Shown here: piece by piece, positions 34,001 through 63,398 of the stretch
Numbering within the stretch: position 1 is the first letter of the stretch
How the letters are laid out: each line of letters begins with the position of its first letter
Virus record (IMG/VR): IMGVR_UViG_3300044635_001202
Location: 1 to 64,000 of that record
Origin: a virus
Reading direction: 5' to 3' (one strand)
Length of the DNA stretch: 64,000 nucleotides
Made by a program: the position numbers and the translations under genes
The notes under the pieces: model-generated
The model's input: the letters and a program-made list of their open reading frames with translations, nothing else
Databases searched by the model: none
What the model was told of the DNA's origin: nothing

Positions 34001-37000
34001 GCCATCAGTATGAAAAAAGCTCTTTTCATCTTTAATACCAGCAAATCTAGAAAGAGCTGCTTCAGCACGATCCCATATTTGGTAATCTACTTTTGTTGCT
34101 CCTTCTTCATCTGTATATTTCATTAATATTGGTCCCATACCCGGTACTACTCTGGTACCGGCATCTGGCTCTAGATCCTTAAGGTCTAGAGTTAATGTAT
34201 TATCATCTGCTTTTGGAGTTTGTTTAGGGCTATTCAAAAACGTGTATACTGTAGGAGCTTGATATAAAGCAGACTTTGCTTTTGTTAAACCTGCTATTGC
34301 AGCAGGTGTATTTAGATCAATAATTTCTGTAGTACTTTGTCTAGCTGATTTAGTAAAGATAGTTTCATCACCAAGATCATGTACGAAACCTCCTTTATCA
34401 TAATATCTAACTTTTCCTCCTTTACTATATTTATTACTATTTATAGATTCTAATAGTCCTCTATTTCTACTAGTAGCTTGTCTATTAACAACAAATTCTC
34501 CGGGAGTCAACATGGCGGGAACAGTGTCTGTTCCTTTGGCACTAAAATCAACCATTTGTCCTGCTGCTGCATAGATAATACCTCCTGAAGCTTTGCCTTG
34601 AGGCTGCAAAGGAGCTAGTCTATTAATACCAGCAGCTATATCTGCTAAATGGGCATTAACGAAAGTTAATTGTGTTTTAGATAAAGCTAAACTAAGTGCT
34701 TTTGCAGATCTGTCTGCAATATCTTGTGCAAGTGTTCCTTCTAAGTTTGCTAAGTATCTGTTAGCTTGTGCTTGTAATGCATTAGCTTCGTTATAATAAG
34801 CTAGTGCTGCGGAAACAGCCGGATCAACTTCTGGATTACGCAAACTATTTAAAACGTCCATAAACATTGGAGTTATGCCGATACCAGACTCTTGCAACAT
34901 ACTTTCTAATACATTTGCTCTAACATTAGATCCTTGTTTACTGTCTCCCAAGAAAGGCAATAAGTCTTGTAGTACTCCTAAAGTATCTTTTCTTTCATTG
35001 GCAAATGCTGCTTGTGCAGATTTCATAGCTTCAAAAACATTGGCTCCATTGTTTAAAGCTTCACGATAAGCTTTTTGCGCTCCTATACTATTATTAATAG
35101 TATTAATTTGACCATTCATATTCCGTTGTAGTCTAACAAATGACATATTAAGACCACTTAATTCTTCTGGAGTAGATGTTACAAGTTTTTCTATAAATGA
35201 AACCTTGCCCCCTATTCTTTGTTGAGCGTCTTGCATTTTTTGCATAGCATCTGATGCAAACTCAGTACTTTCCGCTAAGAGTTTTAAGCCACTAATATTT
35301 TCTCTTAAAGCGATACTTGTATCTTTCACGTTGTTACTAAGTCTAGCAAAATCAGGAACTCCAGCTGGACCTCTTTCTGCTACTTGTGCTCGTGAACTTT
35401 CTTGTCTTCTTCTTAGAGCATCTAAATCCAAAATAGAATTAAAAATTTCTCTAGGATCAACAGAACCTCCAGTAAAACTCTTAGTTTTATTTTGTAATCT
35501 TTGTCTGGACTGATCTAAATCAATAGTTTTTCCTAGTACTTTTGCTAATTCTACATTAGCATTAACTAAGATATCGTCAGCTCTACGCAATTTATCTCTA
35601 CGAGATATTTCCAGGTCAATAGTTTTATTAATATTGTTTCTATAAGAATCTAATGCAGCTCCAAAACTTTCTAAAGCTTTACTAACTATTCCCTGAACAT
35701 TCTGTGCGGTATCTAAAACTTTACTTAATGAAGCTACTTTATCTTGAATTTCAGAAAAAGACACCTTGTCTTCTCCAGATTTTCTTAATTCTCCTACTGC
35801 TCTACCAACTTGTTCTGCTATTTTTTCTGATAACTCAGGTGGCAATCCTAGATCTTTTAGAGCTTGTCTAAGATTAGCATCAATTTTCATGGAGATAACT
35901 TCGTCATTTGCTTCAGGATTTTGTGCCAATACTGAATTTACAGTTTTCATTACTGTAGATTCTGCTGTTTCTCCAACAGACAATAGAGATTGAACTATAT
36001 TAGATGAAGGTCCAAAAAAACCACCTGCTGTTGCACGAGCTTGTGATCCTTGAAAATCGTTATATGATCTTGGATTATTTAATACATTAGACAATCCTAA
36101 TTCTGTTGACTGTAAGGAAGCTTGTCCGTTTAAAGCTGCTATATTACCATCTATGCTTTGTTGCATTTGTTGCAAAGAGAACGATGTTGCTGCTATTGCC
36201 TGTTCCATGTTTCTAAACATACGAATTAAAGATCCTGTATATACAGCAGTAAATCTTTGTACGGATTTAGCTTCTTTGTCTCTGATGGTAATCAATACCT
36301 GCTGTCTTGTTTTTTCTTGAGCAGCTGCGTCTATTATGCGTTTTTTTTCTTTCTCTATGACAGCTCCGTCTAATCCGCTATTTTCTAGTTCAAGGATCCT
36401 CTGACGAATAACCGCGTCTGCATTAGCTAAAGACTCAGCAAAACTCTTGAAATTAGGATCATTAACAATATCTTGAAAAGATTCTCCTTTATAAGCTCTC
36501 TCTTTGAAGCTTTCAAGTAAAGAATCTGACAAAGCTTTACCAAGAGCCGCTTGTTCTTGTGCAAGTTGTGGTATAATTTTTTTATATTCATCAGCTAGTG
36601 ATCTTTCGTCGCTGCGAGAAGCATAATAAGCTTTTTTACCACCAAGTCTCTCAATCTCAGATCTTTTATCAAATCCTTCAGTATCTCCTGTGCCAAAATA
36701 TGGCATAGAGGTATATATGTAGTCTAATAGATTAGTAAAAGTAATAGTGGATTGTTTACTTACTCTGTCTAGAGCTGAAGCGAAAGCTTTCGAAGCAGAT
36801 TCTAGAGCACTGTTTAGTCTATCAAATCCTATATTATTTGCAGCTTTTCTTAATCTCTCAAATTCTTGCTCAACTCCCTTCATACTAAATTCAAGCTTTT
36901 GTTTCTGTAGATCAATATCAAATTGATTCATTGCGTTAACAACATCTTTAATGGTCGAGACAATCGTAAAAGCAGCTGCTCCAAGAGCAGTTAATCGAGC

Positions 37001-40000
37001 TGCAACTCTTGTTAATCCCGACCCGAATCTGCCTAATGTTGTATTAACGTTAGATAATCCTTTAGACATTTCATCCAATTGACTATATAGCATTAATCCT
37101 GTGCCTAATCCGGTTGTGGCTGTTTCTAAACCTGCTGCAAGACCGGCTGATTCTGCACTACTTTTCCTGTCTATACCTTGTGCTAATATGCCCCCAAACA
37201 TTTGAATACCAAAAGCTCCTGTCATCATAGCTTGAGAACCTATTCCAGTACGACCCGGACCAGATGCTCCTCTAGTTTCGTTAAGTGTGTCTCGACGAAT
37301 CCTTGCTTCTTGTTGAGCCATTCTTCTGGCTTCTTCTAAAATTCTATTTCTATCACCTCCGAAACGACCTTCTGCTGTTAGTTGTCTTGTTAATTCAGCT
37401 CTTCTTCTAGTTTCAAAAGCTCTATTCATTTGTTCAAATGTTCTTGGATCTCCCATAGCAGTATTAATATATTGTCTAAGATCATTACCGCTTAATCCTG
37501 CTGTTTGTGTTGGTGATAATCCAGCTCTTTGAGCTGCTCTTCCATATGAAACGCTTTCTGCTCGTCTCATAAAAGTATCATCAAGATCACGACCACTTGC
37601 TTGACGTCTTTGAATCATAGCTTGTAAGTTTTGCTGTGCATCATAATCTATTGTTTCTAATTGACCACCATTAACTCCAGCTAATTGTCTTTGAGCTCTG
37701 ACTTGAGCCGCTGCTTGCTGTCTGATATTAGCAAGTCTTGTTTCAGCTTCTATAACAGTTCTCATTGGTGCGCCAGAAACTCTTAATCTTAAAATATCTG
37801 CTTCATATGCTCTTGTAGCAGCTTCTACACTAATTTGTCCTCCTCTACGCAAGATATTGGCTGAGTCCGAAGACCTAACTCCTAATTCTTCTAGGGCATC
37901 TATCATCTGACCAAGACCTGTTACCACGCCGTCCGGAATGCGTAAATTCTCAAAAGAAGCTTGTGCTCCCGGTCTAGCTGGAACTCTTGGACCACCACCA
38001 AAGAAAAATCTTTGTACGGCACCTCCAGCAGCGAAATTCTGTACGGTTCCTACCGGACCTCCTTTGTTAAATCCTTTAATTTTATCTGCTCTATTAAGAG
38101 TATGTAATCTACTAGATCCTAAACTACTAGCAGCTTTTTTATTAATTACAAACTCACCCGGAGTTAATAAAGCAGGAACAGTGTCTTGAACGGATCCTCC
38201 AGTAGCATACTGCTGAACATTAGCCCAAAGATTATGTCTCCCCATTAAATCTACGTATTTTGCTGTATTTACTCTAAATTTAGAACGAGGAGAAAGCATG
38301 AATTCGTTTTCTTCATTGGGTTGTTTCATGAAGAACGTTTCGGTTTTGCCTGTTCTTGGATTAATATCTTGTTTGGTTACATTAATTTTACGATCTTTTA
38401 ATTGTTCGGCAACATCTACTCCTTGAGCATTCTTTTTTGTTTTTACAGTAAGCATAGCTGCCCAATTATCTTTTGCTCTTGGAGCATTATCTAAGAATGA
38501 TTTGGCAACTGCGTAGTTTTTACTTGTAGAAATGAATCCCGGAAGACTAAAAGTTTTACCAATAATTTTAGCTACTTCTGGAGCATAATATGCTTGTTTA
38601 GCATTAAATTTGGTTCCTTGTGGAATATCTGGATTTTTATTTAATCCAGTATCCATAGCAAATTTATCAAATGCATTACGAGATATTGAAGTATATAATT
38701 CCTCTGGTGCTTCTGTGCGAAGTTTACGTAAATTTCTAACATCTGAAGCTAATTGTTTTCTGTCCTCTTTATTTAATGATTTGCTATTAGACAAACCAAG
38801 ATTAATTGGAGTAGCGTCTGTGTAGTATCTTTCTAGTGTGTCTAAAGGTTTTGATAAGCCTCCAGAAGCAAATTTTTGAACTACTCCTCCAAGATTATAT
38901 CCTTTAACATTTTTAAGATAAGTAACAATATTATCCTCTACTGTTGATGGACCACTAATTGTTCTTTTTGCATCAGTGGGGATGTTTCCTGGTATATTAA
39001 AATATTTAGCTGCTCCCTTAAGTCCATTAGGAAAATCTAAACCTTGGCCTTTTAGAGCTGATGGTCCTCCTAATTGTTCGATCATTCTTTCAAAGATAAC
39101 TCCTTGGGCTGTAGCATCAGCATTAGTATTTTTTATACTTTTTCTATTACCATACCTATATGACGTAATTCCTTCTGTTGATCTAGCTTTGGCCGCTTTC
39201 ACATTTCTAACATCATCATCAACAAATACTGATCCTGGACTAAGTAATTCCGCTTTAAGTTTAGCTATTTGAGAACCAGAAACTCCTGGACCTCCCAATC
39301 CCTTGAATTGAGATAATGGAATAGGTAATCCTTGAGAAGATAACCACTGATGAACAAGGTCTAATGTTGATGATGGACGAGCTGTAATTAGTCTTAGACT
39401 ACTAAGTAATTCAGGTTTTTTAGAAACCATGCCAACTAATTCTCTACCTAATAAACTAAGCTTTGCTCCTTTAAGAGCGGCTGCTACTTTAGTTCTATCT
39501 CCAAACTCAGCAAACTTTGGAGTTTTTGGATCAGCCAACACTTTATCTGCTCCAAAAGCTAATGTTCTGTCAAAATCCAAATTCAATTCTCTACCAAGAC
39601 CAAGATTAGATAAAATATCAGCCACCATTACTTTTTTAGCAGCTTGTTTGGCAGTTTTGTTAACAGAGGAAGAAAAAGACTGGTCCAGAGAAGCTGCTGT
39701 ATCTGGATTCATAAGTCCACTAACAATCCTCACACTCACCGGAGATTTTAATAAATTAGAATTAATAGTCTTATTAATAGGAGCAAATGCGGATCCCATC
39801 ATACCAGCAGCGCCAAATACTAGTCCTTTGGATTCTGCTCTGGTGGTTTTAGCCTTTTGTGCTCCAGATAATCTATTTTGTTGTTTAGTAAATTCTGCAA
39901 AAATAGCTTTTTTACTTGCTTCCTGTTCTGGTGTTAATTTTTGTTTTTTAAGTAAAGTATATACATCTGTTGAAGATATTCCACCAGCAGCCGCAGCTTT

Positions 40001-49852: not shown

Positions 49853-50770
49853 TTAAACTGTAAATGTAACCGTTCCTGTACCGGCTGTAATTGTAACAAT
49901 TGTATCTGCTCCAAAAGAAGCTGTAGTGTATGATAGTCCCGCTGAAAGAGTTATGTTTAATATGGCATCAAATCGCAATATCACAACACCGCTACCACCC
50001 ACTCCTCCAACTGAGAAATTAGTACCATCAGTTGCTCCACCACCACCTCCCCCTCCGGTATTAGCCGCACCTGCCGATCCCGCAGACGCAACATCCTGCG
50101 ACCCGTTGCCTCCACCAGTGCTACCACCAGAACCAGCAGAAGATGTTCCAACGTAGCCTCCAGAGCCACCGCCGGGACCGTATAGAACAGCCGATCCAGT
50201 GATGTCGCTAGACCTACCAATACCGCCCGAACCGCTAACGGTTGAAGTGGCGTCACCCCCTTGTCCACCAGAACCACCGCCACCACCACCAGCCCTTCCG
50301 TTTGATTGGCCAAGGCCACCGGAAAATCCTTGCGTCGTGATGTAGGACGCATTGCGAGTGCCTCCGTTGCTGTTGCCGGTCAGGAACAAATATCCGGCAC
50401 CTGTAGCAAGCGAGAAGCCAACGCTAGATGTCGAACCCGTTCCACCGCCTGCGGCAGTGATACCATCAAAAAAACTATTATTTCCGGGGAATGCTCCAAC
50501 AGAGCCACCGGCAGCAATCGTCACGGAGTATGATGTGTTAAGTAGAACGCCAAGGGTCTGATCCACCACGCCGCCACCACCACCTCCGGGTCCAGGGCGT
50601 CCGCCACCTCCCTGTGCAGTAACACCAGCCGCTCCACCACCAACCACCAACACACGAAGTAAAAAATTATCAGCAAATAAATCCCACGAATATCCATTCC
50701 ATCGGTATACTCTATTATTTTGACGAGAATATTGATTTACTGTTGGATTATTTGGAAAATTAAATGGCAT
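49853..50770 (-). CDS. Glycine-rich fibre/receptor-binding protein (305 aa)
   Basis: The N-terminus 'FNFPNNPTVNQ' plus 'VYRWNGYSWDLF' is a small attachment domain. Residues about 35-265 consist of Gly-rich stretches ('GGGGRPGPGGGGGG', 'GGAGGGGGGSGG') separated by short strands, as in polyglycine sandwiches of phage adhesins such as T-even gp38-type proteins. The C-terminus 'FGADTIVTITAGTGTVTF' is shared with the next gene. Its middle part (about 49980-50680) is notably GC-richer than its neighbours. The role is host binding, inferred. Confidence 0.7.
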   Translation of the reverse strand: MPFNFPNNPTVNQYSRQNNRVYRWNGYSWDLFADNFLLRVLVVGGGAAGVTAQGGGGRPGPGGGGGGVVDQTLGVLLNTSYSVTIAAGGSVGAFPGNNSFFDGITAAGGGTGSTSSVGFSLATGAGYLFLTGNSNGGTRNASYITTQGFSGGLGQSNGRAGGGGGGSGGQGGDATSTVSGSGGIGRSSDITGSAVLYGPGGGSGGYVGTSSAGSGGSTGGGNGSQDVASAGSAGAANTGGGGGGGATDGTNFSVGGVGGSGVVILRFDAILNITLSAGLSYTTASFGADTIVTITAGTGTVTFTV

Positions 50771-50773
50771 AAA

Positions 50774-51649
50774 TTAACTCCATGATACTGTTCCGGTTCC
50801 TGCTGTAAAGGTAACTATTGTATCAGATCCTACTGTGGTTGTTGTAAATGTTAATCCTACTCCTATATTAATTTTCATTTGGGAAGAATTCCAACGAACA
50901 ATAACAACGCCAGAACCACCAGTTGCTGGATTTGCATTTGTTCCACCTCCACCCCCACCTCCTCCTCCAGTATTGGCTGTCCCAGCTACGGCTGCAACGG
51001 ATGCTGCTGCATTTCCATTCCCTCCACCACCAATACCACCAGTGCCAGCAATAGCATTAGGATTAATTCCGTTAGAGTAACAACCACCACCAGCTCCTCC
51101 GCCATAGTATGATCCAGTAATTGTTGCTAACCGACCAGCACCACCATTACCAGATGCAGTAGATACAGCGTCACCACCTTGCGCCCCGGCTCCTCCTCCT
51201 CCTCCTGCGGCGGTAGCTGCCGCAAGACCAGTACCACCAGAAAATCCTTGCGTAGAGCAAAGAGATATTAGTCTCGTTATCGATGTGCTAGTGCCTCCAC
51301 TAGATGCTCCATATGCTATAGGCGTATTTTGACCAACGCCAGCACCTCCTCCTATTGCGACGATACTGCTAAACCGAGAAATAGAACCTTGGGTATTCGC
51401 TGCTCCCCCAGCTCCAATGGTTATCGTATATTCTGTTTGCAGTGAAATTCCAAGAAGCTGTTCAAGTACACCTCCGCCTCCACCACCACCAGCAGGAGTA
51501 TGTCCTGAGCGAATACCACCAGCTCCACCGCCTCCAACAACTAATAATCTTATTGTTCCAACAATAGACGAAGAACCAGATATTCCATATGGTCCGTATG
51601 GACTAGAAGATGCTAAAGATGATCCAAAACCATAAATACCATTATTCAT
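50774..51649 (-). CDS. Glycine-rich fibre/receptor-binding protein, paralogue (291 aa)
   Basis: Same plan as the previous gene: 'IRLLVVGGGGAGG', Gly-rich loops, 'LQTEYTITIGAGG', and 'SGVVIVRWNSSQ' before a C-terminus 'VGSDTIVTFTAGTGTVSW'. Codon use is closer to the genome average than in its paralogues. The N-terminus 'NNGIYGFGSSLASSSP' differs from the others, so it may attach to a different partner. It overlaps the following 127-aa gene by 4 bp. Confidence 0.7.
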   Translation of the reverse strand: MNNGIYGFGSSLASSSPYGPYGISGSSSIVGTIRLLVVGGGGAGGIRSGHTPAGGGGGGGVLEQLLGISLQTEYTITIGAGGAANTQGSISRFSSIVAIGGGAGVGQNTPIAYGASSGGTSTSITRLISLCSTQGFSGGTGLAAATAAGGGGGAGAQGGDAVSTASGNGGAGRLATITGSYYGGGAGGGCYSNGINPNAIAGTGGIGGGGNGNAAASVAAVAGTANTGGGGGGGGGTNANPATGGSGVVIVRWNSSQMKINIGVGLTFTTTTVGSDTIVTFTAGTGTVSWS

Positions 51650-52029
51650 AGATCAGCACCTAAAGCAGTAACGTGGGTGGCTTGACTAACGCTAGTAGTT
51701 ACTCTTAAAGTCCAAGAGGCGCTTGGTAATATAAGATTGTTATACTGGGTACTCACTCTACTTTGCTGAACAGTACTTGATCCAGTGGCGGCAGCTATAG
51801 TATATTCGTCAAAAAGATAATAAGTAGATCCATCATGTAAAAATAAACGAACTATAGCAGCAGAACTGGTAGCAGCATTTTTTACTACAACTTCTGCTAT
51901 TCGTGTTCCTGTAGATGCTCCAGTAATTAAAGTTCCAAAATTTGTTGGGGAAGTATAAGAACTTTCAGCAGTTGATATGCTGACATTTCCTATTCTAGGT
52001 GTTGCGGCAAATGAGGGACTAATAGCCAT
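51646..52029 (-). CDS. Conserved small β structural protein (127 aa)
   Basis: All-β sequence: 'IGNVSISTAESSYTSPTNF', 'GTRIAEVVVKNAATSSAAIV', 'STYYLFDEYTIAAATGS', ending 'SWTLRVTTSVSQATHVTA'. This family occurs widely in phages beside fibre genes. The jelly-roll-like pattern suggests a head or fibre decoration protein. No cysteines. Start on ATGA-type overlap with the glycine-rich gene. Specific function not recognised. Confidence 0.6.
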   Translation of the reverse strand: MAISPSFAATPRIGNVSISTAESSYTSPTNFGTLITGASTGTRIAEVVVKNAATSSAAIVRLFLHDGSTYYLFDEYTIAAATGSSTVQQSRVSTQYNNLILPSASWTLRVTTSVSQATHVTALGADL

Positions 52030-52040
52030 AATTTATTCTC

Positions 52041-52511
52041 CTATTTAAAGTTGTTCCATAGATAAAGATTAGCGGCATTTTGAGCATTATTAACGCCTGC
52101 GGTTGGTGGTCCTATTTCGGCATAATATGATCCTGTCCATTGATATAGTCTACTGGTATCAGATGCTAAATAATAAGAGTTGGTTGAACCAGTAGCTGGA
52201 AAGCTAGCTGTTGTAGCATAACTTATTATAACCGTACTATCAACTGTATAATTGCCAGAACTAGAGCTAATGCTAATTCCAGAACCAGCAGTTATATTGG
52301 TCACTGGTAATAGTCCACTAACTGAAGAGTTAAAATCTGTAATATTTGAAGATGAGTGAGTATGCCCACTAACACTAACATTAACACTATTAACTTGTAG
52401 TGAATTTATAAAATTACCACTAGTAACAGACAATAACCCACTAACAGAGGTATTAACTCCGCTAATGCTTATGTTTCGTGCTAGTAGTGAATTATTATAT
52501 GCTTTTGTCAT
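52041..52511 (-). CDS. Fibre-segment protein (156 aa)
   Basis: It has 'VSVSGHTHSSSNITDF' and 'SVSGLLPVTNITAGSGIS', repeat units shared with the 594-aa fibre encoded at 55532-57316, and 'YYLASDTSRLYQWTGSYYAE', a common tip-type segment. Probably a short fibre or accessory fibre part. Composition is AT-rich. The upstream side abuts the GC-rich island. Confidence 0.6.
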   Translation of the reverse strand: MTKAYNNSLLARNISISGVNTSVSGLLSVTSGNFINSLQVNSVNVSVSGHTHSSSNITDFNSSVSGLLPVTNITAGSGISISSSSGNYTVDSTVIISYATTASFPATGSTNSYYLASDTSRLYQWTGSYYAEIGPPTAGVNNAQNAANLYLWNNFK

Positions 52512-52557
52512 ATGTTATTATTTCTTAAGTTGTAATATCGTATGGTTTTGTGATATG

Positions 52558-52845
52558 TTATCTGTTTGCAAATGTGGTAATAGTTGGCGTGAATGTTGCC
52601 GTCGGGAATGGGTGCGGCGGCACGAATACGTCTGCCTGCGGATCGTAAGAAAACCCAATGCCAGCGAATTGTCTGCGAATGCTGCCGCTGTAGCTTGTCT
52701 GTATCCATCTTCCGCCAAGCAAAGACTGACAGAACGAGATGCCCTTGGCCTCGCTTTCGACGCCGTTGTCGAGCAGTTCCGCGTTGTTAACAACGATCAC
52801 CTGTGTGACGATGTTGTTGTCGTCGAGTTGTGCAAAATGTGCCAT
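52558..52845 (-). CDS. GC-rich copy of the 'MAHFAQLDDNN' family protein (95 aa)
   Basis: It opens 'AHFAQLDDNNIVTQVIVV' and has 'WIQTSYSGSIRRQFAGIGF' and 'DVFVPPHPFP', the same order as the 104-aa protein encoded at 49524. Its base composition is strongly GC-rich with C/G-ending codons, unlike the homologue. It overlaps the glycine-rich FN3 protein gene by 1 bp. Recent acquisition from another phage is likely. Confidence 0.7.
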   Translation of the reverse strand: MAHFAQLDDNNIVTQVIVVNNAELLDNGVESEAKGISFCQSLLGGRWIQTSYSGSIRRQFAGIGFSYDPQADVFVPPHPFPTATFTPTITTFANR

Positions 52846-54380
52846 TAGAATGTGATACTCCCGGTACCAGTGAATGTGTAGATGATGCTTCCCTCGCTGT
52901 TCGTAATCACAGGGCTACCAGTTGTCGCCGTTGCAGCGACTTGCGATTTGATAATCACAACGCCGCCTCCCCCAGCAGTACCTCCATCACCGCCCGCACC
53001 CTGCCCAGAGTTTGCCGTGCCAGCAGAGCCAACAGAGTTGCTGCCATTGACGGGCGTGACCTGATCCGCCCCCACCGAGATACCAGCGCCACCGCCGGAA
53101 AAATACCTCGTGCCTGAGTAGAGTACGCCGACGCTGGCTGCTGCCGCAAGCGTACTGTAAGAGCCAACACCGTCACCTCCAGCGCCAGCGGAGCCGCCGG
53201 ATGCGTTTCCGCCAGCACTAGCAGCACCACCACCACCGCCGGATGCTCCAGAACCATAAGGCCCAGCGCCGTTGCCTCCGTTGTAACCTTGACCGTTTGT
53301 GCCGCTGCCGCCAAGCGATCTGCTGTCTGTTGTGAAACCGGTTCCGCCGCCGCCGCTGCCTCCGTTTTTGCCTGAGCTATTGCCACCAAACGAACCACCA
53401 CCACCGCCACCAACAGCAACAGCTAACAGGCTAGCGAATGAGGAGTTTGAGCCGTTCGTTCCGGCAGTATTTGAGCCAACGCCCGCGCCGCCGCCGCCCA
53501 CCGTCACGATGTATTGTACGCCTGTTGCGTAGGCCACCGCAGACGAATAAACTACGCCGCCACCGCCGCCACCGCCGCCTACAGAAGTGGCACCGCCGCC
53601 ACCACCAGCGACAACGAGAACCTCAAGCATACTCCCCGGCGTCACTGCACTACTAGCCGTCGAATATGTTCCAGTACCCACGCCATTGACCCCAGCAACA
53701 CGAAACACATACGATGCTCCATTACTCAGTCCGGTAACAGCCACACTCGTTGAGGTAGAAGCTCCGTCAGAGAATGTTGTCCACGTTGAACCAGAATTTG
53801 ATGAATATTGTACTATATAATCTGTAATCGGCGTCTGACTTAAAACTGCTGGAGCTGTCCAGGATACTGTGGCCTGAGCGTTCCCCTGACTAGCCGTCAC
53901 TCCTGTCGGTGCCGGAGGAAGAAATAAATCCCATCTAGAATCATAACTAGAACCCCCACTACCCCCAGAAGAAACTCCAGAAGCCATAGTTAAATATTCT
54001 AAAACTGTTCCTGATGGAACACTATTATTAAGAGTAACATTAGATCCATCTGTTGCAGAAAAGTCTAGGTCTGATACTAGCTTAACTCCGTCTTGGAACA
54101 AATCTAAATACCCGACAGGATAGCCACCTGACACGGCAAAACTGGTCAATGTTCCTGTTGTGCTTATTATTCCTCTAACTCCAACAGACGAAGATGATGA
54201 ACCACCAACACTAGTTGATCCTATTCCACTAAGAGCTACCCAATTTGAAACTCCGTCTCCTATCTTAAGAATACTATTTGTTAAATCGTAGCCGGGCTCA
54301 CCACTAGCTAATACTGGATTGACCGAAGTCCATGCTGAAGATGTTCCTTTGCGAAATGTTATTAAATCATTAACAGCCAT
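52845..54380 (-). CDS. Mosaic fibre protein: attachment domain, FN3, glycine-rich tip (511 aa)
   Basis: Residues 1-50 are the 'W..NPVLASGEPGY...LKIGDG..NW..L' attachment domain common in phage fibres. About 155-250 is a fibronectin type III domain ('PPAPTGVTASQGNAQATVSW', 'SYVFRVAGVNGVG'). From 250 on it is a glycine-rich adhesin-like tip with 'MLEVLVVAGGGGG'. The 5' third is AT-rich like the genome; from about 53.9 kb toward its end it is GC-rich. The change lies at the start of or within FN3, a typical recombination border. It is preceded by the AGGTGTAT element. Confidence 0.75.
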   Translation of the reverse strand: MAVNDLITFRKGTSSAWTSVNPVLASGEPGYDLTNSILKIGDGVSNWVALSGIGSTSVGGSSSSSVGVRGIISTTGTLTSFAVSGGYPVGYLDLFQDGVKLVSDLDFSATDGSNVTLNNSVPSGTVLEYLTMASGVSSGGSGGSSYDSRWDLFLPPAPTGVTASQGNAQATVSWTAPAVLSQTPITDYIVQYSSNSGSTWTTFSDGASTSTSVAVTGLSNGASYVFRVAGVNGVGTGTYSTASSAVTPGSMLEVLVVAGGGGGATSVGGGGGGGGVVYSSAVAYATGVQYIVTVGGGGAGVGSNTAGTNGSNSSFASLLAVAVGGGGGGSFGGNSSGKNGGSGGGGTGFTTDSRSLGGSGTNGQGYNGGNGAGPYGSGASGGGGGAASAGGNASGGSAGAGGDGVGSYSTLAAAASVGVLYSGTRYFSGGGAGISVGADQVTPVNGSNSVGSAGTANSGQGAGGDGGTAGGGGVVIIKSQVAATATTGSPVITNSEGSIIYTFTGTGSITF

Positions 54381-55531: not shown

Positions 55532-57316
55532 TTATGGTGTGCCGCCATCAATGACGCAGTAATATAGTGTTGTTGGATTAGCTGCGCTAACTCCGCTAAT
55601 GCTTGTTAGTCCGGCGAGAGTAGACGTTGTTGTTCCAAGAGATACTGATGTAGAGCCTATTGTAACCGAACTATTAAGAAGCTTATTATTAGCTATACTT
55701 CCAGCCAACATGGTATTTGTTACTGTACCAGTATCTGATGTATAAACACCGCTAGTTACTGTACTGGCATTACCACTTAAATTAGCGGTAATAGTTCCCG
55801 CACTAAAATTGCCGCTAGCATCACGGGATACAATAGCCAAAGTAGTATTGCTGTCTGTTGCTGTTGTTGCACTATTGCTAACTTTGCCACTTGAACTAAT
55901 TGTAGCTAGTTTGCTATCAGCAATAGCTGCGGAGCTGGATATGTCTCCATTTACAATACTATTAGATAGACTTAACTTACTGTATGCAATAGCAGCGGCA
56001 CTATTAATGTCTGCATCAACAATGGTGTTGTTAGCAATCATGGTACTAGTAACAGTACCAGTATCTGTTGTATAAACGCCATTTGTAACAGTACTAGCAT
56101 TGCCGTTCAATGATCCAATAAAATTACCACTAGTATAAATATCTCCACCAGTAAATTCCCACCTATTAGCTGATGTATTCCAAACAACTGACTTTGTGTC
56201 AGTCCCTGTATAAACTTCCATACCTCCGGTATTCAAGCCACTAGTATTAACTCTGATAATGTTATCACCAATTTCTACAGTAGTACTGTTAACTGTAGTA
56301 GTTGTCCCTTGAACAATAAGATCTCCACCAACTGTAATGTTTCCGGTGGTTGCTAAATTATTAATACCAACAATACTACGGGTACTATTAAGTACTAAAG
56401 CTCTGCTTGCAGAAGCTGTACCAGCAACAACTCCGGACAGATATGTTAGTTCAGCTAGTGTTGCTCTTGTAGAAGCGTCTGTTATATTATTCCAGGTGTG
56501 AGTATGTCCAACAAAAGATACTCCAGTAGTATCGATAAACATAGCATCATTAATAGAATCATAAGTTAAAGCAATACCAGTTCTTCCAATTACCTGAGTG
56601 GTAGCAACACTTCCAAGATCGGTAACTAAAGAACTTGGGATTCCAGTTACGCTAATAGTTTGAACACCAGCATTATTAACTATGCCAATGCCAGATCCTT
56701 GAGATAAACTCTTAACATTTAATAAACCACTTACCGAGGAATTAAAATCTCCAATATAAGAACTAGTTAATCCAGTAACTGAGATGGTTTCTACCTTACT
56801 AGTATCATCATAACTTGCTCTAATACCACTTACCCCAGTTATGGTAGCTCCTATAACATCTTTAACTGTATTAGCATCTAATCCATTAGTAGATATTGTG
56901 AATGTTCCATTGTTTCCACTTACAGCAATATTAGTGCCAGCCACAATATTTTTTACTGGTAATAAGCCACTAACACTACTATTAAAATCAGTAATTGCAG
57001 AAGATGAATGAGTATGGCCGGGAAGGGAAACTCCAGTAACAGATATGGTTAAGGCATTTGTTGAATCACTGTAAGACTTTTCAATATTAGAACCAGCGAC
57101 CAATAGATCATTAACTCTATCGTCTACCAATTCATTTAATTCAGAAGGTAAAACAGCTGCGTAAGCCAAAGAATTCCAGGCTGTTGTACCGTCTCCTATC
57201 TTGAATTTTTTATTGTCTGTTTCATAGCCTACTTCTCCAGCACTTAAAATAGGATTGACTGCGACCCAGTCTGTTGCTATACTTCTACGAAACTGAATTT
57301 TAGTTTGAACTGGCAT
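55532..57316 (-). CDS. Tail/head fibre protein with repeated β units (594 aa)
   Basis: It begins with the attachment domain 'IQFRRSIATDWVAVNPILS...FKIGDGTTAWNSL'. It continues with repeated units such as 'DFNSSVSGLLPVKNI' and 'GIRASYDDTSKVETISVTG', and later 'INSAAAIAYSKLSLSN' / 'SSSAAIADSKLATIS', typical of marine and freshwater phage fibres. No enzyme motif is visible. The C-terminus 'TTLYYCVIDGGTP' is a small tip. SD GGAG precedes the start. Its repeats are shared with the 156-aa protein at 52041, so one may derive from the other. Confidence 0.75.
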   Translation of the reverse strand: MPVQTKIQFRRSIATDWVAVNPILSAGEVGYETDNKKFKIGDGTTAWNSLAYAAVLPSELNELVDDRVNDLLVAGSNIEKSYSDSTNALTISVTGVSLPGHTHSSSAITDFNSSVSGLLPVKNIVAGTNIAVSGNNGTFTISTNGLDANTVKDVIGATITGVSGIRASYDDTSKVETISVTGLTSSYIGDFNSSVSGLLNVKSLSQGSGIGIVNNAGVQTISVTGIPSSLVTDLGSVATTQVIGRTGIALTYDSINDAMFIDTTGVSFVGHTHTWNNITDASTRATLAELTYLSGVVAGTASASRALVLNSTRSIVGINNLATTGNITVGGDLIVQGTTTTVNSTTVEIGDNIIRVNTSGLNTGGMEVYTGTDTKSVVWNTSANRWEFTGGDIYTSGNFIGSLNGNASTVTNGVYTTDTGTVTSTMIANNTIVDADINSAAAIAYSKLSLSNSIVNGDISSSAAIADSKLATISSSGKVSNSATTATDSNTTLAIVSRDASGNFSAGTITANLSGNASTVTSGVYTSDTGTVTNTMLAGSIANNKLLNSSVTIGSTSVSLGTTTSTLAGLTSISGVSAANPTTLYYCVIDGGTP

Positions 57317-57338: not shown

Positions 57339-57602
57339 TTAGGGTGTTCCACAGTCGAATTGGTATGAGTCTAAGTAATCGTCTAATCCACTAATTCTAT
57401 AAACAGATAAATTTCCAATAATTTTATTCATAGGGTAGGAATCTGGTAGATCACTAAGTAGAATCTTTTCAGTATTGATAACATCAACATTATACGTTTC
57501 GTATCTTTCTATTTCTAGATTATTAATATTTTCAATATAACTAGTTTCTATCTCAATAATGTTATTCTCTGTATCTACAATTTCAACAATAAAATCACTC
57601 AT
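57339..57602 (-). CDS. Small acidic protein of unknown function (87 aa)
   Basis: Mostly β and acidic ('FIVEIVDTENNIIEIET', 'YNVDVINTEKILLSDLPD'), ending 'DYLDSYQFDCGTP'. The end 'GTP' is like that of the adjacent fibre. It overlaps the previous gene by 4 bp, so it is part of the fibre operon, perhaps a linker or chaperone for a fibre. No known family recognised. Confidence 0.5.
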   Translation of the reverse strand: MSDFIVEIVDTENNIIEIETSYIENINNLEIERYETYNVDVINTEKILLSDLPDSYPMNKIIGNLSVYRISGLDDYLDSYQFDCGTP

Positions 57603-58006
57603 ATGTTACAGTCTAAGTTGGAAGTATTTTGACTAAATCTCTTAACAACAGTAACTGTACCAAATACAATCCTAGTAATATATTTACCTCCACCACCAGC
57701 ATATAAATCATCTGGAGATCGTAGTTCCAGATCATATTTAGCCGTGTTGAAGATAAATCCATTAGTAGTTGAGGCGGGAATTAGCAAAGTAAGTTTTCCA
57801 TTTAAATCATCTATTGTAAATTTATATACACTATAGTCAGTATTTTCAGAATGAAACGCTTGGGTGGCATTCAAGTTAGTTCTCCAAGTAAGTCTAGCAC
57901 ACCAGTTTGTTAAATTGATGGGGGTTCCATTCTGGTTTTTGTATATCCAGGATATTTTAAATGATGTTCCCTGTTCTATAGCAAAGTCATATTTGGCTGC
58001 TGCCAT
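57599..58006 (-). CDS. β-sandwich structural protein (BppU-N-like), paralogue of the gene at 48473
   Basis: 135 residues: 'YDFAIEQGTSFKISWIYKN', 'GTPINLTNWCARLTW' and 'FNTAKYDLELRSPDDLY' match the 145-aa protein encoded at 48473-48910 in order and spacing. It is the first gene of the fibre block, downstream of the capsid terminator and of promoter element A. As it opens a fibre operon it may anchor these fibres to the virion. Confidence 0.6.
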   Translation of the reverse strand: MAAAKYDFAIEQGTSFKISWIYKNQNGTPINLTNWCARLTWRTNLNATQAFHSENTDYSVYKFTIDDLNGKLTLLIPASTTNGFIFNTAKYDLELRSPDDLYAGGGGKYITRIVFGTVTVVKRFSQNTSNLDCNI

Positions 58007-58077: not shown

Positions 58078-58147
58078 AAGTCTTCGTTGTCTGTTTAGCT
58101 TGTCTACAAAAACAAATCTGTATATTCTCGATAGTGGTGAAATAAAA

Positions 58148-58171
58148 AGAGCCACCGGTTAAGGCAGCTCT
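58148..58171 (-). terminator. Intrinsic terminator after the major capsid gene
   Basis: A 9-bp stem (AGAGCTGCC / GGTGGCTCT, two G-U pairs) with a 6-nt loop, followed on the - strand by TTTTTATT. It lies about 37 bp after the capsid stop. A perfect 12-bp palindrome AGTCTTAAGACT stands between them (58188-58199) and may add to it or bind a protein. Confidence 0.85.
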
Positions 58172-58208
58172 TCTTATTTTTAATAATAGTCTTAAGACTG
58201 TTATAGTA

Positions 58209-59222
58209 TTATAGAGAACCTAGTATAACTCTTCTATTGTCTAGAACAGCAAAGCCTTGTTCAGCCCAACCATAAAAGCCAGCTCTCTTTTGACGATGTA
58301 GTGTGTCATCTTCAAAAATTTGAACTTCTTCACGGACTGGCATTATAAAGCTATCTCTCTTACGAAGATCTAGGCCAACAACCACTTCGTTATCACTACC
58401 TGGAAGTGTGCCATTAAGAACACTGGAGTAGAAGAGTTGATACTCTTGACCTTCTCCTAGTTCGTCTAGATCATGAAGATTGATACCGAATACTCTGTTG
58501 ATGGCTCCATCACCAGCAGTGTAGATTTCTCTACGTGTAACTTCGTCAACTTGGTCAATACCCCAATTACGAATATCTTCCATTGACTCTGGAGAAACAT
58601 AAAGATCTGTTAACATGCCTCTATTGTTACTAGCAGAGTTACCTCCGCCGTTACGACGCATAACAGTCTTCATAAGACTTACTAGTCTCTTGGTGAACTG
58701 GCCAGAAGCAGCATCGCTATCATAGACAACAATGTTGCGATCAACGCCAGCAGCAAGCAATGTATGCCAGCCATCATCGTTCATCTTCTTGACGAAAGAA
58801 CTTTCAAGAACTTCCATTGCACGACCAACTACGTCCCAGCGAGCATCACGAGCATACTTTAGAAGATAATCGATACTAGCACCGATATCAAAAGTAGGAA
58901 CCATGACGTAATCGCCTTCAACATGGCGTTCTGGAACATAGCCGTGGTTAGGAACAGTATAGGCAACAAAGTCCTTTTCTGTACCTGGGGCTAGAAAATC
59001 TAGTGGGAATTCTGGAGTGGCACTTTGAGCTAAACGAATTGGCTCGAAGATACCGTCTAGAATATCTCCACTTAACAAACCCTTACGGAGAGGAAGTTCT
59101 AAGGCCTTTGCAAACTCAGCATTGGCAGCTAAAGATACCTCTCTGTTTGGAGAGCCAGAACGGATCAAAAGATCTGTAAGTTCTGGTGTTGGTTGGAAAG
59201 CTTTGCTATTAACTGATGACAT
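58209..59222 (-). CDS. Major capsid protein (HK97 fold)
   Basis: 337 residues with the typical order of this capsid group: 'GDILDGIFEPIRLAQSAT', then 'PEFPLDFLAPGTEKDFVAYT', 'VPERHVEGDYVMVPTFDIG', 'NNRGMLTDLYVSPESMEDI', and 'HRQKRAGFYGWAEQGFAVLD'. The N-terminal 20-50 residues are helical and may act as a delta-domain. It follows decoration and protease/scaffold genes and is followed by a strong terminator. Its codon use is GC-richer than the genome average, in line with high expression. Confidence 0.9.
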   Translation of the reverse strand: MSSVNSKAFQPTPELTDLLIRSGSPNREVSLAANAEFAKALELPLRKGLLSGDILDGIFEPIRLAQSATPEFPLDFLAPGTEKDFVAYTVPNHGYVPERHVEGDYVMVPTFDIGASIDYLLKYARDARWDVVGRAMEVLESSFVKKMNDDGWHTLLAAGVDRNIVVYDSDAASGQFTKRLVSLMKTVMRRNGGGNSASNNRGMLTDLYVSPESMEDIRNWGIDQVDEVTRREIYTAGDGAINRVFGINLHDLDELGEGQEYQLFYSSVLNGTLPGSDNEVVVGLDLRKRDSFIMPVREEVQIFEDDTLHRQKRAGFYGWAEQGFAVLDNRRVILGSL

Positions 59223-59247: not shown

Positions 59248-59703
59248 TCAAGTAATATTGACTGAGACTTTAGCATAACCATCTGCACTTAAGCTGCTCA
59301 AGAACTGACCAATCTTCACAGCATTGGTGCTGGATGTTCCAACGAGACCACTGGCGCCAACATAAGCATCAGTACCAGCTGTTGGTGAAATGCCGCTTAC
59401 AAGACGATTTGTTGTTACCTGCCCTTGACGTAGAACAGTAACCTTGCCACCAACCTGAACCTCATCTCGGTGCCAGTTGATATGCTGTCTGGTTAGGTCA
59501 TAGTTAACAACGTCGTTCAAGAGAATGCCAAGAGGCTTGGCTCCGCTGGCAGCAGCAGCATAAGCTACTACAGCATTAGCGTCGTCCATGGCTACGCCAG
59601 AACCGCTAGTAACAGCAGATACAACGCCGCCTCTCTCGGCAGTGGTGTTCATGAAAAATGAAATATCTGTTAGTAATTCGATACGATCTGGTTTAAGAGC
59701 CAT
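59248..59703 (-). CDS. Capsid decoration/stabilisation protein (151 aa)
   Basis: All-β small protein between scaffold and capsid genes: 'RIELLTDISFFMNTTAERGG', 'GSGVAMDDANAVVAYAAAASG', 'VQVGGKVTVLRQGQVTTN'. Position and size fit a gpD-like head decoration protein that binds the capsid after expansion. No cysteines. The gap to the capsid gene is 25 bp. Confidence 0.7.
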   Translation of the reverse strand: MALKPDRIELLTDISFFMNTTAERGGVVSAVTSGSGVAMDDANAVVAYAAAASGAKPLGILLNDVVNYDLTRQHINWHRDEVQVGGKVTVLRQGQVTTNRLVSGISPTAGTDAYVGASGLVGTSSTNAVKIGQFLSSLSADGYAKVSVNIT

Positions 59704-59706
59704 GAG

Positions 59707-60387
59707 TTATTCTCCCTTATTAAGATTTTTACCTAGTCTAGCACAAACAAATTCAACAAGTTCTGCACGAGTATTTGAAACAGTTGATTCTGCTTCTCCA
59801 CCAACGCCTAGCTCAACTGTCTCTGTTGTTTCTACTTCTTCTAAGGCATCAACAACATCTTCAGCTTTTGCTGGTTTCTTTTTTGGTGTTTCCATCATCA
59901 TTTCAGCCTTTTTAACTTTCATACCAGCAAAAAGACTAGTCATAGTTTCAAATGCAGTATCGTCGATATTTTCGAATTTTTCTAATGTTGAAGCAACGGA
60001 CTCTTCGTCGAGACCGGCTTCTACTAAAGCTGCTTTACGCTTCATCATTTTTTCTTTCTTCATCATTTCAGCTTCTTTATCCTTGTAAGCTGCAATGACT
60101 TCATTAGCTGCGTTGAGTTCTGCTTTAACAGTATCAAGTTCTGTTTGCTTGTCTGTAAGAGCTGTTTGTAGTTCTGCAACTGTGATCTCTACTTCGTTCT
60201 TTGTGGCAGCTAGAGCTTCGTCAAACTCAGCTTTCATCTTTTTCATCTCTTCTTCTTTCTTAACTAATTCAGCATCTTTATTTTTCATAGCTGCCTCTAG
60301 TGTTTCATTGGATAGTGGAGTGTCCGAAGCAAGTGCATGAGCTTCAGGCACATTAAGATCGGTATTTGTTTCTACAGCTGCACTCAT
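59707..60387 (-). CDS. Nested scaffolding protein from an internal start (226 aa, in frame)
   Basis: ATG at 60387 (codon 274 of the protease-scaffold gene) has GGAG 9 bp upstream. The octamer AGGTGTAT lies at 60426-60433, 38 bp before it, the same distance as site C. The product would be the coiled-coil scaffold alone. Nested, in-frame scaffold genes are known from lambda (C/Nu3). The internal start is seen in sequence; its use is an inference. Confidence 0.55.
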   Translation of the reverse strand: MSAAVETNTDLNVPEAHALASDTPLSNETLEAAMKNKDAELVKKEEEMKKMKAEFDEALAATKNEVEITVAELQTALTDKQTELDTVKAELNAANEVIAAYKDKEAEMMKKEKMMKRKAALVEAGLDEESVASTLEKFENIDDTAFETMTSLFAGMKVKKAEMMMETPKKKPAKAEDVVDALEEVETTETVELGVGGEAESTVSNTRAELVEFVCARLGKNLNKGE

Positions 60388-61206
60388 AGTGATATTCTCC
60401 GCATTTAATTGGGGTTCGTTTACTAATACACCTGAATTCGATAAATCGTCATTTTTTTGTTCCAATAATTTATTTACTACATCTCTGGTAAAGATTATAC
60501 TATCTGGATTAGCTGGTTTGTCAACAAAACCTTTACCTGAAAAAGTAATATCTCTTAATACTCTGCCAATTTTGTAGTTAGAGTGTTCACCCTGACCTCC
60601 ATAAGCTCTTAAATATTTTGTTAGATAAGCAGTGTCTTCATTTCTTGCTAATATTTTATACTCTGCAGTTTCTTTATTAATTAGTCCATAATCGAAACCT
60701 TTGAAATAGCATTCCATGCTAACGTATTTTTTCCCAGATTCGATCTCATTAATCAAATTTTCTGCTCTAGCTTTAAGATCTGGATTACTGAAAGCTCTAT
60801 AAATTACAGATCCAGTTAAAATATGAAATTTATCTGGTAAGTCATTAATATCAATAATATTATTAATTGGAGATCCATCGTCATCGATAGGCCAATTAGA
60901 AGTAATATGTCCTATGATTAAATTTTCATTATGCTCTAAATTTGTTGGTTTGTCTTCCGGTGTATTACGAGCATTCCATACTTCTGTTTTATGAAAAATA
61001 TCGTCATTTTTATTCCATGCAGAACTTACTAAAATAGACTGAACATAGTACAAATCATTGTCATGTAATGATGCTATGGTTTTATTTTTAAGTTTATTGC
61101 TTTTAGAAACTTCACAAGGTTCCGCTAAGGAAGCATAAGAAACCGAAGCAGAAGCACATATTTTCTCAGCAATACCATCATGAATTTCTGCTGCAAAAAT
61201 TTGCAT
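59707..61206 (-). CDS. Prohead protease fused to scaffolding domain (499 aa)
   Basis: N-terminal half: U35-type serine protease pattern with His92 in 'NLEHNENLIIGHI', Ser163 in 'KYVSMECYFKGF', and the conserved later segment 'GRVLRDITFSGKGFVDKPA'. C-terminal half (about residue 274-499): Lys/Glu-rich coiled coil ('MKKMKAEFDEALAATKNEVE') that is a scaffold, ending in 'LVEFVCARLGKNLNKGE'. An internal ATG at codon 274 has its own ribosome binding site and a promoter-like octamer, so a separate scaffold protein may be made. It cleaves capsid and scaffold proteins during head maturation. Confidence 0.8.
   Translation of the reverse strand: MQIFAAEIHDGIAEKICASASVSYASLAEPCEVSKSNKLKNKTIASLHDNDLYYVQSILVSSAWNKNDDIFHKTEVWNARNTPEDKPTNLEHNENLIIGHITSNWPIDDDGSPINNIIDINDLPDKFHILTGSVIYRAFSNPDLKARAENLINEIESGKKYVSMECYFKGFDYGLINKETAEYKILARNEDTAYLTKYLRAYGGQGEHSNYKIGRVLRDITFSGKGFVDKPANPDSIIFTRDVVNKLLEQKNDDLSNSGVLVNEPQLNAENITMSAAVETNTDLNVPEAHALASDTPLSNETLEAAMKNKDAELVKKEEEMKKMKAEFDEALAATKNEVEITVAELQTALTDKQTELDTVKAELNAANEVIAAYKDKEAEMMKKEKMMKRKAALVEAGLDEESVASTLEKFENIDDTAFETMTSLFAGMKVKKAEMMMETPKKKPAKAEDVVDALEEVETTETVELGVGGEAESTVSNTRAELVEFVCARLGKNLNKGE
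60426..60433 (-). promoter_or_regulatory. Candidate internal promoter element AGGTGTAT (site D)
   Basis: On the - strand TTCAGGTGTATTAGTA lies inside the protease gene (codons for SGVLV), 38 bp before the nested scaffold ATG. Because it is coding DNA, a chance match cannot be excluded; the matching distance is what makes it notable. Confidence 0.35.
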
Positions 61207-61217
61207 AAATTACTTTC

Positions 61218-63398
61218 TTATGTTGATGGATAAAGCATAGAATAAAACGATGCTTTAGCCTGTTTTTGGTCTTCTACAGTTAAATCTCTGTTTAATTGTG
61301 ACGCTAGCTGTCTTAACCATACACTATAATGGTCTATAAAATTATTGTTTTTTACTAATAAATTATTTAATTCGGCTATAATTTTGTCAGAATCAATTAT
61401 GCAGAAAGGTTGTAAGTTGAATAGAATTTGCGTTTTTGTGCTTTCTAGTTCTCGTGCTTGCTCGTTAGACAAACTTCTTAGGTTTTTCTTATTATAAAAA
61501 TCTAATAAAATAGGATTGATAATTTCGCCAATTTTATCTTGTGCTTCAGATGCCCACAAGGAGATTGCTGCGCCTTTTTGTGGGGTAAAAGTTTTTGTTT
61601 TTCTGGGGGATGAATCCTTGGAAAGTTTTGGTCTGCCTTGTTGAGGTTCACCCGGCAAAGATTCTGGCGAATCTTTTGCCAACTTCGTTGGTGAAAGAGC
61701 TTGCTTCATTTCAAGTGCTGTTTTTTCTCCAGTTTTCTTCTTTTCTAGTTCCAAACCCACTTGAGATGGAGAGGCTACTCCTGTTTGTAATGCTATTTTC
61801 TTTAAACTATTATCTGGTGTCGGATCATACCACGGGCCTGCTTTGTTTACCATTCTTTCACCAGTTCTGTCTCTTTGTTCTCTATTGAGTCTAGATTTTT
61901 CCATATCTGGATCAAACCCAAAACGTGTTTGTAATAGTTCATCGCTAATAAGATTTCTATCTGCAAGCTGTACTAATAGTGCTTTCTCTGCATCTTCATT
62001 ACTAAGATCCATTCTATCAAATTCTACTTTAGCTGGATATCTAAAACCCATAGCTTTTTGTATTAATGCTATTTCTTTATCCCAAAATTCTGTAAGGATA
62101 TCTCTACCATATTGTAATCTTTGGGTTAATGTTTTGAGAGAAATAAAGTTATTTGTTGTTCCTGCTGCTCCGAAGGTTCCTGTTAATGTAGGAGGAATTC
62201 CAAGACCAGCATATACTGAATTAAGGTGAGGAATGTATTTGCCCTCTCCTAAAAATTGATGAACAGATGTTTTTGATTCTATAAGCTCTATATCTGGACC
62301 CCAGACAAGATCCATCGTTCCTCCTCCAACATTGTTTCCTAAAATCTGTGCTAGTTTAGCTGCGGCGGCTTTTGTGGGAGCAATTTTATGCTCTAGACTA
62401 CCTAGCTTAAAAATACGAATATTGCTTATAGCTCCGTCGAGAGCAGACATATCTGCTAACTTTAGTTTTTCAATAACAGTAATATCGTCCATGATAGAAT
62501 ATACCATAGGATATGCCCAGCTTTGCCAATCATCTTTTTTGTAATGAAATACAAGAGTTTTTTCTGCATCCAAAGGATATGCTTTTCTTGCTTTTGCTGC
62601 TTCTATAATTGGTAATGGTAAACCTTCCACTACTTTTTTCTCTTGTTCTGTTTTTGGATTATTAATAAGTTTACGTAAATTAGCTGGTAAAATTAATTCA
62701 TATCTTTTGTTCTGAACAAAAGAAGATAATGCTCCAGCTGATACTTCAACATACGCTGGATCAATAAAAGTATACTTCCAAGGAATTTCTCTTTTTTCTA
62801 CCGGAAGATCATCTATATCTGTTATCTGTAAATCTGGAGAAGCTACTGCTTTATATAGTTTTTCTGCTGCTTTTATACTTAATTTTCCTGTTTGTCTATT
62901 TATTACAATGTTTCCGGTTTTATATAGATTGTTTAAGAATCGTTCACTGCGATCTTTACCTCTAACTTTTTTAAACCACTGTCTGTAAAATCTTTCTATT
63001 CTTTTATTTTTATGAACTAATCTTATTCCTTGGCTAGCAAAATCACCCATAAGATCAATTACGTTTTTGACCAAACCTACTCTTTGATAGATATCCTCTG
63101 CTCTGATAAGAATATGTTTGATGTGTCTTGGAGTAGCTTCAGATGGTCTGAAAAAGTCATAGTCTGCTCTTGTTAATCCTGGTCTGCCTGATGTATTAGA
63201 GTCTAGATTAGAATAGTCTAATCCATATCTCCTCATAGCAGTAGACTTTTCAACTATATTGTATTCTGTAAGAGATTCTGATGATTTTTTAAGAGCATCT
63301 GTTTTACTCTGTAAATCTTCTCCCCATGTAACATAAGCATTTTCGTCTATGGGTGAGGCTGTTTGAATCGCTGAACTTTTTGGATATTTTTTGGCCAT
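61218..63398 (-). CDS. Portal protein
   Basis: 726 residues. The core has 'RAEDIYQRVGLVKNVIDLMG', 'FYRQWFKKVRGKDRSERFL', 'WKYTFIDPAYVEVSAG', 'LVFHYKKDDWQSWAYPMV', 'YIPHLNSVYAGLGIPPTLTG' and 'TLTQRLQYGRDILTEFWDKE', which follow the wing, stem and crown order of HK97/T4-type portals. The last 180 residues are Lys/Pro/Ser-rich and partly disordered, then helical. It lies between terminase and protease genes. It forms the dodecameric DNA gate of the head. Confidence 0.85.
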   Translation of the reverse strand: MAKKYPKSSAIQTASPIDENAYVTWGEDLQSKTDALKKSSESLTEYNIVEKSTAMRRYGLDYSNLDSNTSGRPGLTRADYDFFRPSEATPRHIKHILIRAEDIYQRVGLVKNVIDLMGDFASQGIRLVHKNKRIERFYRQWFKKVRGKDRSERFLNNLYKTGNIVINRQTGKLSIKAAEKLYKAVASPDLQITDIDDLPVEKREIPWKYTFIDPAYVEVSAGALSSFVQNKRYELILPANLRKLINNPKTEQEKKVVEGLPLPIIEAAKARKAYPLDAEKTLVFHYKKDDWQSWAYPMVYSIMDDITVIEKLKLADMSALDGAISNIRIFKLGSLEHKIAPTKAAAAKLAQILGNNVGGGTMDLVWGPDIELIESKTSVHQFLGEGKYIPHLNSVYAGLGIPPTLTGTFGAAGTTNNFISLKTLTQRLQYGRDILTEFWDKEIALIQKAMGFRYPAKVEFDRMDLSNEDAEKALLVQLADRNLISDELLQTRFGFDPDMEKSRLNREQRDRTGERMVNKAGPWYDPTPDNSLKKIALQTGVASPSQVGLELEKKKTGEKTALEMKQALSPTKLAKDSPESLPGEPQQGRPKLSKDSSPRKTKTFTPQKGAAISLWASEAQDKIGEIINPILLDFYNKKNLRSLSNEQARELESTKTQILFNLQPFCIIDSDKIIAELNNLLVKNNNFIDHYSVWLRQLASQLNRDLTVEDQKQAKASFYSMLYPST

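Follow-up and report, generated by a model that had tools for sequence, protein, structure and literature searches.

A candidate late promoter nested in the protease-scaffold gene of an uncultured lineage of tailed phages

Head assembly needs much scaffold protein and little protease. In phage lambda, the scaffold gene Nu3 forms an in-frame 3' part of the protease gene C and has its own ribosome site; Nu3 is not known to have its own promoter, and the protease of lambda is of another fold. The late promoters of T4 are gp55 dependent and carry the motif TATAAATA. T4 likewise requires scaffold in large excess over protease, with about 580 gp22 to about 55 gp21 proteins (PMC9958956). In HSV-1, the promoter of the UL26.5 scaffold gene lies inside UL26, and the transcripts are 3' coterminal, as outlined in PMC2949831. 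For giant phages of the phiKZ/SPN3US type, the account given in PMC5694885 named no confirmed counterpart of the T4 scaffold at the time of that paper. The open papers that we searched described no phage whose protease gene contains a nested promoter.

We analyzed the first 64,000 positions (the window) of IMG/VR record IMGVR_UViG_3300044635_001202, which has a full length of 73,135 bases. On the minus strand, the portal gene is followed by a fused protease-scaffold gene, the cement gene, the major capsid gene, a terminator, and then more genes. The features of this region are as follows.

61218..63398, minus strand, portal gene (phrog_2739), directly upstream of the protease-scaffold gene
59707..61206, minus strand, fused prohead protease-scaffold gene, 499 aa (open reading frame and AlphaFold2 model)
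60502..61206, minus strand, protease domain, residues ~1 to 235 (structural alignment)
60452..60458, minus strand, conserved A-run (A7), 19 nt upstream of the core
60426..60433, minus strand, internal promoter-like octamer AGGTGTAT, core GGTGTA at 60432-60427 (codon conservation and motif rank)
60397..60400, minus strand, internal Shine-Dalgarno sequence GGAG, 9 nt before the ATG (codon conservation)
59707..60387, minus strand, nested scaffold gene from Met274, 226 aa, coiled coil and C-terminal helix (conserved ATG and modelled helices)
59248..59703, minus strand, capsid cement protein gene (Pfam PF22758 and PF23982), putative member of the internal transcript
58209..59222, minus strand, major capsid protein gene (phrog_2522, distant to the major head protein of Bacillus phage G), putative member of the internal transcript
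58138..58173, minus strand, terminator behind the major capsid gene (hairpin of -16 kcal/mol, z of -4.55)

Elsewhere on the minus strand, an unusually large open reading frame (25100-42493) encodes 5,797 aa, and 55532-57316 encodes a fibre-like protein that begins with an Mtd_N (major tropism determinant) domain. The G+C content is 0.48 to 0.50 at positions 50001 to 54000 and about 0.34 in the surroundings.

The AlphaFold2 model of the 499-aa protein (moderate quality, mean pLDDT of 64) has a beta-rich domain at residues ~1 to 235, a disordered linker at residues 236 to 300 that lacks secondary structure, a long helix at residues 296 to 396, and a C-terminal helix at residues 474 to 490. The stretch that holds the promoter-like site falls in this linker, which is rich in gaps in the alignment and modelled with low confidence. 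With VIA-align 2, the protease domain aligned with T4 gp21 (5jbl) at Z 8.2 over 128 residues and with five herpesvirus proteases (VZV, PRV, KSHV, EBV, and HCMV) at Z 4.6 to 7.2, the highest being VZV (1vzv, Z 7.2) and PRV pUL26N (4v08, Z 6.7), all of these scores being moderate. Foldseek alone found nothing significant for this domain (best E value of 0.12), and a sequence search of the PDB with the protease-scaffold alignment gave no protease match; its hits were weak and fell mostly on the scaffold part. The modelled fold of the protease domain thus resembles the assemblin/gp21 type at moderate scores. A scaffold candidate is plain in this phage, though it belongs to a different group from phiKZ and SPN3US.

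Relatives were collected from uncultured viral contigs in scans seeded with the protease-scaffold protein and the capsid protein. The best 80 matches of each scan gave at least 152 loci, and all 152 contain the fused gene. These loci encode 90 distinct protease-scaffold proteins, which were reduced to 68 representatives with <90% identity (mean pairwise identity of 57%, minimum of 45%). Three more scans with divergent members as seeds supplied a held-out sample of 67 new representatives with <88% identity to the first set, bringing the representatives of the window's clade to 135; these are relatives and not independent events. For dereplication, loci sharing ≥30% of 31-mers were removed, as were proteins that were >90% (first set) or >88% (held-out set) identical. 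The protease-scaffold protein matched no phage record. For the capsid protein, Bacillus phage G was the sole phage match (two records), distant and with a different gene arrangement. Genome bins containing relatives were mixed and did not point to a host.

A preliminary description of this DNA had placed the octamer AGGTGTAT 38 nt, and a GGAG 9 nt, before an in-frame ATG at codon 274, and the sequence bears this layout out in full, with the octamer at 60433-60426 (minus strand) and the ATG at 60387-60385. The window holds four copies of the octamer on the minus strand and one on the plus strand. Of those on the minus strand, three lie between genes, each ahead of a gene.

58077-58070, minus strand, intergenic octamer copy, 63 nt before the ATG at 58006 of gene 58006-57599 and after the terminator; a site is present in 83% of 70 relatives
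54436-54429, minus strand, intergenic octamer copy, 48 nt before the ATG at 54380 of gene 54380-52845; a site is present in 30% of 10 relatives
49490-49483, minus strand, intergenic octamer copy, 39 nt before the ATG at 49443 of gene 49443-48928; a site is present in 14/14 relatives

The number of copies was dropped as evidence. Five copies in the window against 2.4 expected is not significant, since 7 of 100 shuffles reached five, and the whole records of 15 relatives showed no excess over a backward control. The signal beyond chance lies in placement and in codon-level conservation of the internal copy across the lineage.

Conservation at the codon level singled out the site. Among the 68 representatives, 115 alignment columns were conserved at degenerate residues, and 61 of these were four- or sixfold degenerate. 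Only two of the 61 used a single codon, Gly259 (GGT) and Val260 (GTA), which are the codons of the octamer; the other single-codon columns, Asn233 and Lys251, are at twofold-degenerate residues. Not one synonymous change in GGT GTA was found in the 135 representatives. The sole amino acid change at the core, Gly to Ser in locus L110, uses AGT and so keeps RGTGTA, and the AGTGTA form also occurs at intergenic sites. The third base is a purine in 67/68 at codon 258 and A or T in 68/68 at codon 261. The translation signals were held as tightly: Glu270 is GAG in 68/68, though these genes use GAA 3,625 times versus 765 for GAG; codon 269 ends in G in 67/67 (one gap) while coding for V, T, A, M, S, or P; and the internal ATG is present in 68/68 while neighbouring residues vary. 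The linker is therefore invariant at GGT GTA, at the G plus GAG, and at the ATG, and variable around them. In the held-out set, a first strict pattern matched 36/67 representatives. With the spacing relaxed, in-frame GGTGTA, GGAG, and ATG were found in 66/67, and inspection of the remaining sequence by eye (L299) located all three elements, giving 67/67, with 33 to 45 nt from core to ATG and a Shine-Dalgarno gap of 6 or 9 nt. On this conservation in the 68 representatives and the held-out set, there is a predicted in-frame scaffold start codon within the protease gene. The preliminary description had proposed that an octamer conserved no further than its codons demand would refute its reading; this comparison was made, and the octamer withstood it, with GGT GTA invariant in 135 representatives. 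Its octamer has to be trimmed, in that the core RGTGTA is conserved and the eighth base (T) is not. The conserved core is mostly preceded by a purine and followed by a codon with A or T in third position, and in some members of the family the eighth base of the octamer is not T but A, G, or C. Some internal sites are accordingly weaker (lowest matrix score of 5.6), because this base varies while intergenic sites favour T.

The same motif marks the starts of other genes. With no motif assumed, 8-mers containing GTGTAT were among the most enriched in the intergenic DNA of 79 dereplicated loci. Intergenic RRGTGTAT stood on the strand of the next gene 81 times versus 7 times on the opposite strand, and of the 79 sites that share the strand of a gene and lie within 250 nt of it, 71 were 20 to 69 nt before its start. 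Such promoter-like sites precede orthologous genes in different genomes. In three large relatives, analyzed in pieces, GGTGTATA and TGGTGTAT were the most enriched words across 624 regions upstream of genes. In these pieces (L154 to L189, from G001, G011, and G009), TTGACA-containing words were also enriched upstream, which suggests a second class of promoters of the host type. Expectation-maximisation was applied to 149 regions upstream of genes from four families, with the internal site left out, and recovered RGTGTAT followed by A/T (RGTGTATWW) de novo in 76% of the regions. No strong -35 element appeared in the motif profiles, and a generic sigma-70 scan was discarded as giving no useful contrast (28 found versus 21.9 expected).

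When the RGTGTATWW matrix was run over the coding sequences, the internal site ranked first of ~1,500 positions in 68/68. For a single gene taken alone, ~8% of synonymous recodings score as high as the real site, so the case for a promoter rests on the comparison. Counting sites with a matrix score of ≥9 within 100 nt upstream of a start, we found one at the internal Met274 in 93% of 68 sequences versus 0.2% of 1,237 random stretches of the same genes. Sites also preceded the portal gene (65% of 75) and the protease start (56% of 79, the window being without one). The T-rich block that precedes intergenic sites likewise peaks at the expected offset from the internal sites. A putative promoter for the scaffold is thus located within the protease coding region. 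No site was found before the cement gene (0/79 relatives) or the capsid gene (0/76), and since neither downstream gene has its own, the internal site would serve scaffold, cement, and capsid; it is the nearest promoter-like site of its kind for the three together. Behind the capsid gene, a hairpin with a T-run was present in 76/76 relatives, and in 67/76 the terminator was followed by GTGTAT no more than 180 nt past the capsid stop.

Related words also occur inside other genes. In many relatives (56% of 79, e.g., L065, L020, and L132), though not in the window, GGTGTAT lies in the 3' end of the portal gene, 24 to 45 nt ahead of the protease start. An AGTGTA that is conserved and in frame within the portal gene, ~110 nt from the start of the protease gene on its upstream side, was rejected as a promoter, being probably coding. 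A AGTGTATAT-like match at 57832 (minus strand), inside gene 57599-58006, had 23 hits near the same place among 70 orthologues; these are mostly in frame and probably coding.

Genome-bin contigs (L412 and L413) with capsid proteins 66 to 68% identical led to a sister clade of at least 80 loci, from which 52 representatives were taken. All 52 have an internal in-frame GGAGA and ATG. GTGTAWW precedes the protease start in 49/52 and lies behind the capsid gene in 36/37, but GTGTA occurs 20 to 62 nt before the internal ATG in only 6/52, and the sequences inspected had no conserved layout there. A tree of 187 protease domains, built without a further outgroup, split cleanly into the two types (135 versus 52, support of 0.77); gain and loss of the internal promoter are not distinguishable on such a tree. 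The simplest account suggested by these sequences is an older internal ribosome site to which the promoter was added later.

The linker carries one more conserved element, an A-run of at least five bases in 128/135 representatives, which ends 18 to 22 nt before the core in 127 and 30 nt before it in one; seven have none. At the corresponding place of 109 intergenic sites it was never found, and it was therefore rejected as a general part of the promoter. Because the intergenic motif does not include it, part of the conservation at the internal site has another cause. The frame is A AAA AAN in most, and slipping back by one base (-1) at the run leads to an immediate stop in 79/134 sequences (41/67 and 38/67), the highest of 34 codon positions examined; L111 is missing from this count, its coding sequence being short at the start. 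The run could serve as a slippage site at which the protease ends prematurely or as a promoter element confined to this place, or it could be coding. A more elaborate proposal makes the linker a three-way switch, in which slippage of ribosomes or polymerase at A7 to A8 into the stop would yield a protease ending at the linker, the promoter and Shine-Dalgarno sequence would yield scaffold, and unslipped reading would yield the fusion; on this proposal, a transcriptionally separate scaffold gene would have evolved independently of herpesviruses on top of an older internal translation start. We regard it as unlikely.

The conserved internal Shine-Dalgarno sequence and ATG would also be expected if Met274 were reached by internal translation only, on a full-length mRNA as in lambda C/Nu3, with GGTGTA kept for a Gly-Val peptide or for some other coding reason, and the sister clade keeps both signals without the promoter motif in 52/52. 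However, constraint on the peptide fixes neither GGT and GTA nor the flanking R and W while residues change, the L110 residue becomes Ser with RGTGTA retained, and the motif is identical to that of intergenic sites behind terminators. Peptide-level conservation was rejected as the cause of the core, the codons themselves being invariant, and we consider translation alone to be quite improbable.

A processing or stability site in the RNA, in place of a promoter, is in our judgment very improbable. Folding of 45 of the 135 sequences gave no more structure than shuffles (mean z of 0.31, 0/45 below -2), and RNA structure was set aside as a cause for lack of signal in these 45; moreover, the same core recurs after terminators and mostly 30 to 60 nt before genes, where upstream RNA is unexpected. 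Against this, nucleotide-level conservation alone does not tell DNA from RNA, and the conserved A-run upstream has no account in the promoter reading. Chance placement of an octamer ahead of an internal methionine would agree with the nonsignificant count in the window, but comparison already refutes it, the core being kept at the codon level in 135/135 representatives, and its probability is negligible.

We favour, as highly probable on the sequence comparison, a late promoter in the disordered linker that drives a scaffold-cement-capsid mRNA, with transcripts from upstream making the fusion. RNA polymerase would start just downstream of RGTGTATWW, within the linker of the protease-scaffold gene. 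The mRNA begun there would encode scaffold (226 aa), cement, and major capsid protein and would stop at the terminator behind the capsid gene; we infer a single mRNA over these three genes. The protease-scaffold fusion would come from longer transcripts begun upstream, and scaffold and shell protein would be made in quantity, with little protease. Transcription from the site, a separate scaffold product, the stoichiometry, and recognition by a sigma factor are all predictions from sequence. The internal promoter for extra scaffold put forward in the preliminary description is supported by the comparison, but the unit appears wider, taking in cement and capsid. Its preference for a promoter over internal translation alone agrees with the first rank of the motif in 68/68; the internal translation start is equally conserved.

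The site would be read, in the manner of T4 gp55, by the phage's own region-2-only sigma-like protein. A protein of 220 to 235 aa with a Sigma70_r2 match at an E value of 1e-3 was found in 7/7 records (six relatives and the window's own), and the match was above the curated cutoff in 3/7. In the window's record, it is encoded beyond the window at 68617-67955 on the minus strand (7956-8618, minus strand, of locus L153). Sigma region 4 occurred on separate proteins in 6/7 records, RNA polymerase beta in 0/7, and the sigma-like protein had no match in the PDB. By its domain, this protein is a candidate reader of the motif.

Like T4, this phage has a protease of the gp21 fold, a short -10-like motif without a clear -35 element, and a putative phage-encoded sigma-like protein with region 2 only, as gp55 is. 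Unlike T4, where protease and scaffold are separate genes, the two are fused here, and RGTGTATWW differs from TATAAATA. A candidate late-promoter motif is defined for a large uncultured phage lineage, and a region-2-only sigma factor is pointed to as its likely reader. The arrangement is also like lambda C/Nu3 in that a scaffold with a ribosome site of its own is nested in frame in the 3' end of the gene; it differs in the promoter-like site of the window's clade, and the sister clade does fit the lambda pattern, in which the internal start lacks a dedicated promoter. If the promoter is confirmed, the two sister clades, of which one has it and the other does not, would offer a setting in which to ask what a promoter adds to internal translation.

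The likeness to herpesvirus UL26/UL26.5 is in a protease of the same fold fused to scaffold and in a shorter in-frame scaffold gene with a promoter, on the phage side a promoter-like site, within the protease coding region. The phage site differs in being a short bacterial-type motif with a Shine-Dalgarno sequence, and its transcript probably extends across the genes for cement and capsid. A common descent of the nested promoters is not borne out, since the promoter is missing from sister phages that carry the same fused gene. Because the promoter does not travel with the gene, the phage arrangement is analogous to UL26/UL26.5 and not a member of that type, and the sequences argue for an origin of the phage nested promoter independent of herpesviruses. 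If confirmed, a tailed phage lineage would meet the need for much scaffold and little protease as herpesviruses do, by a promoter within the protease gene.
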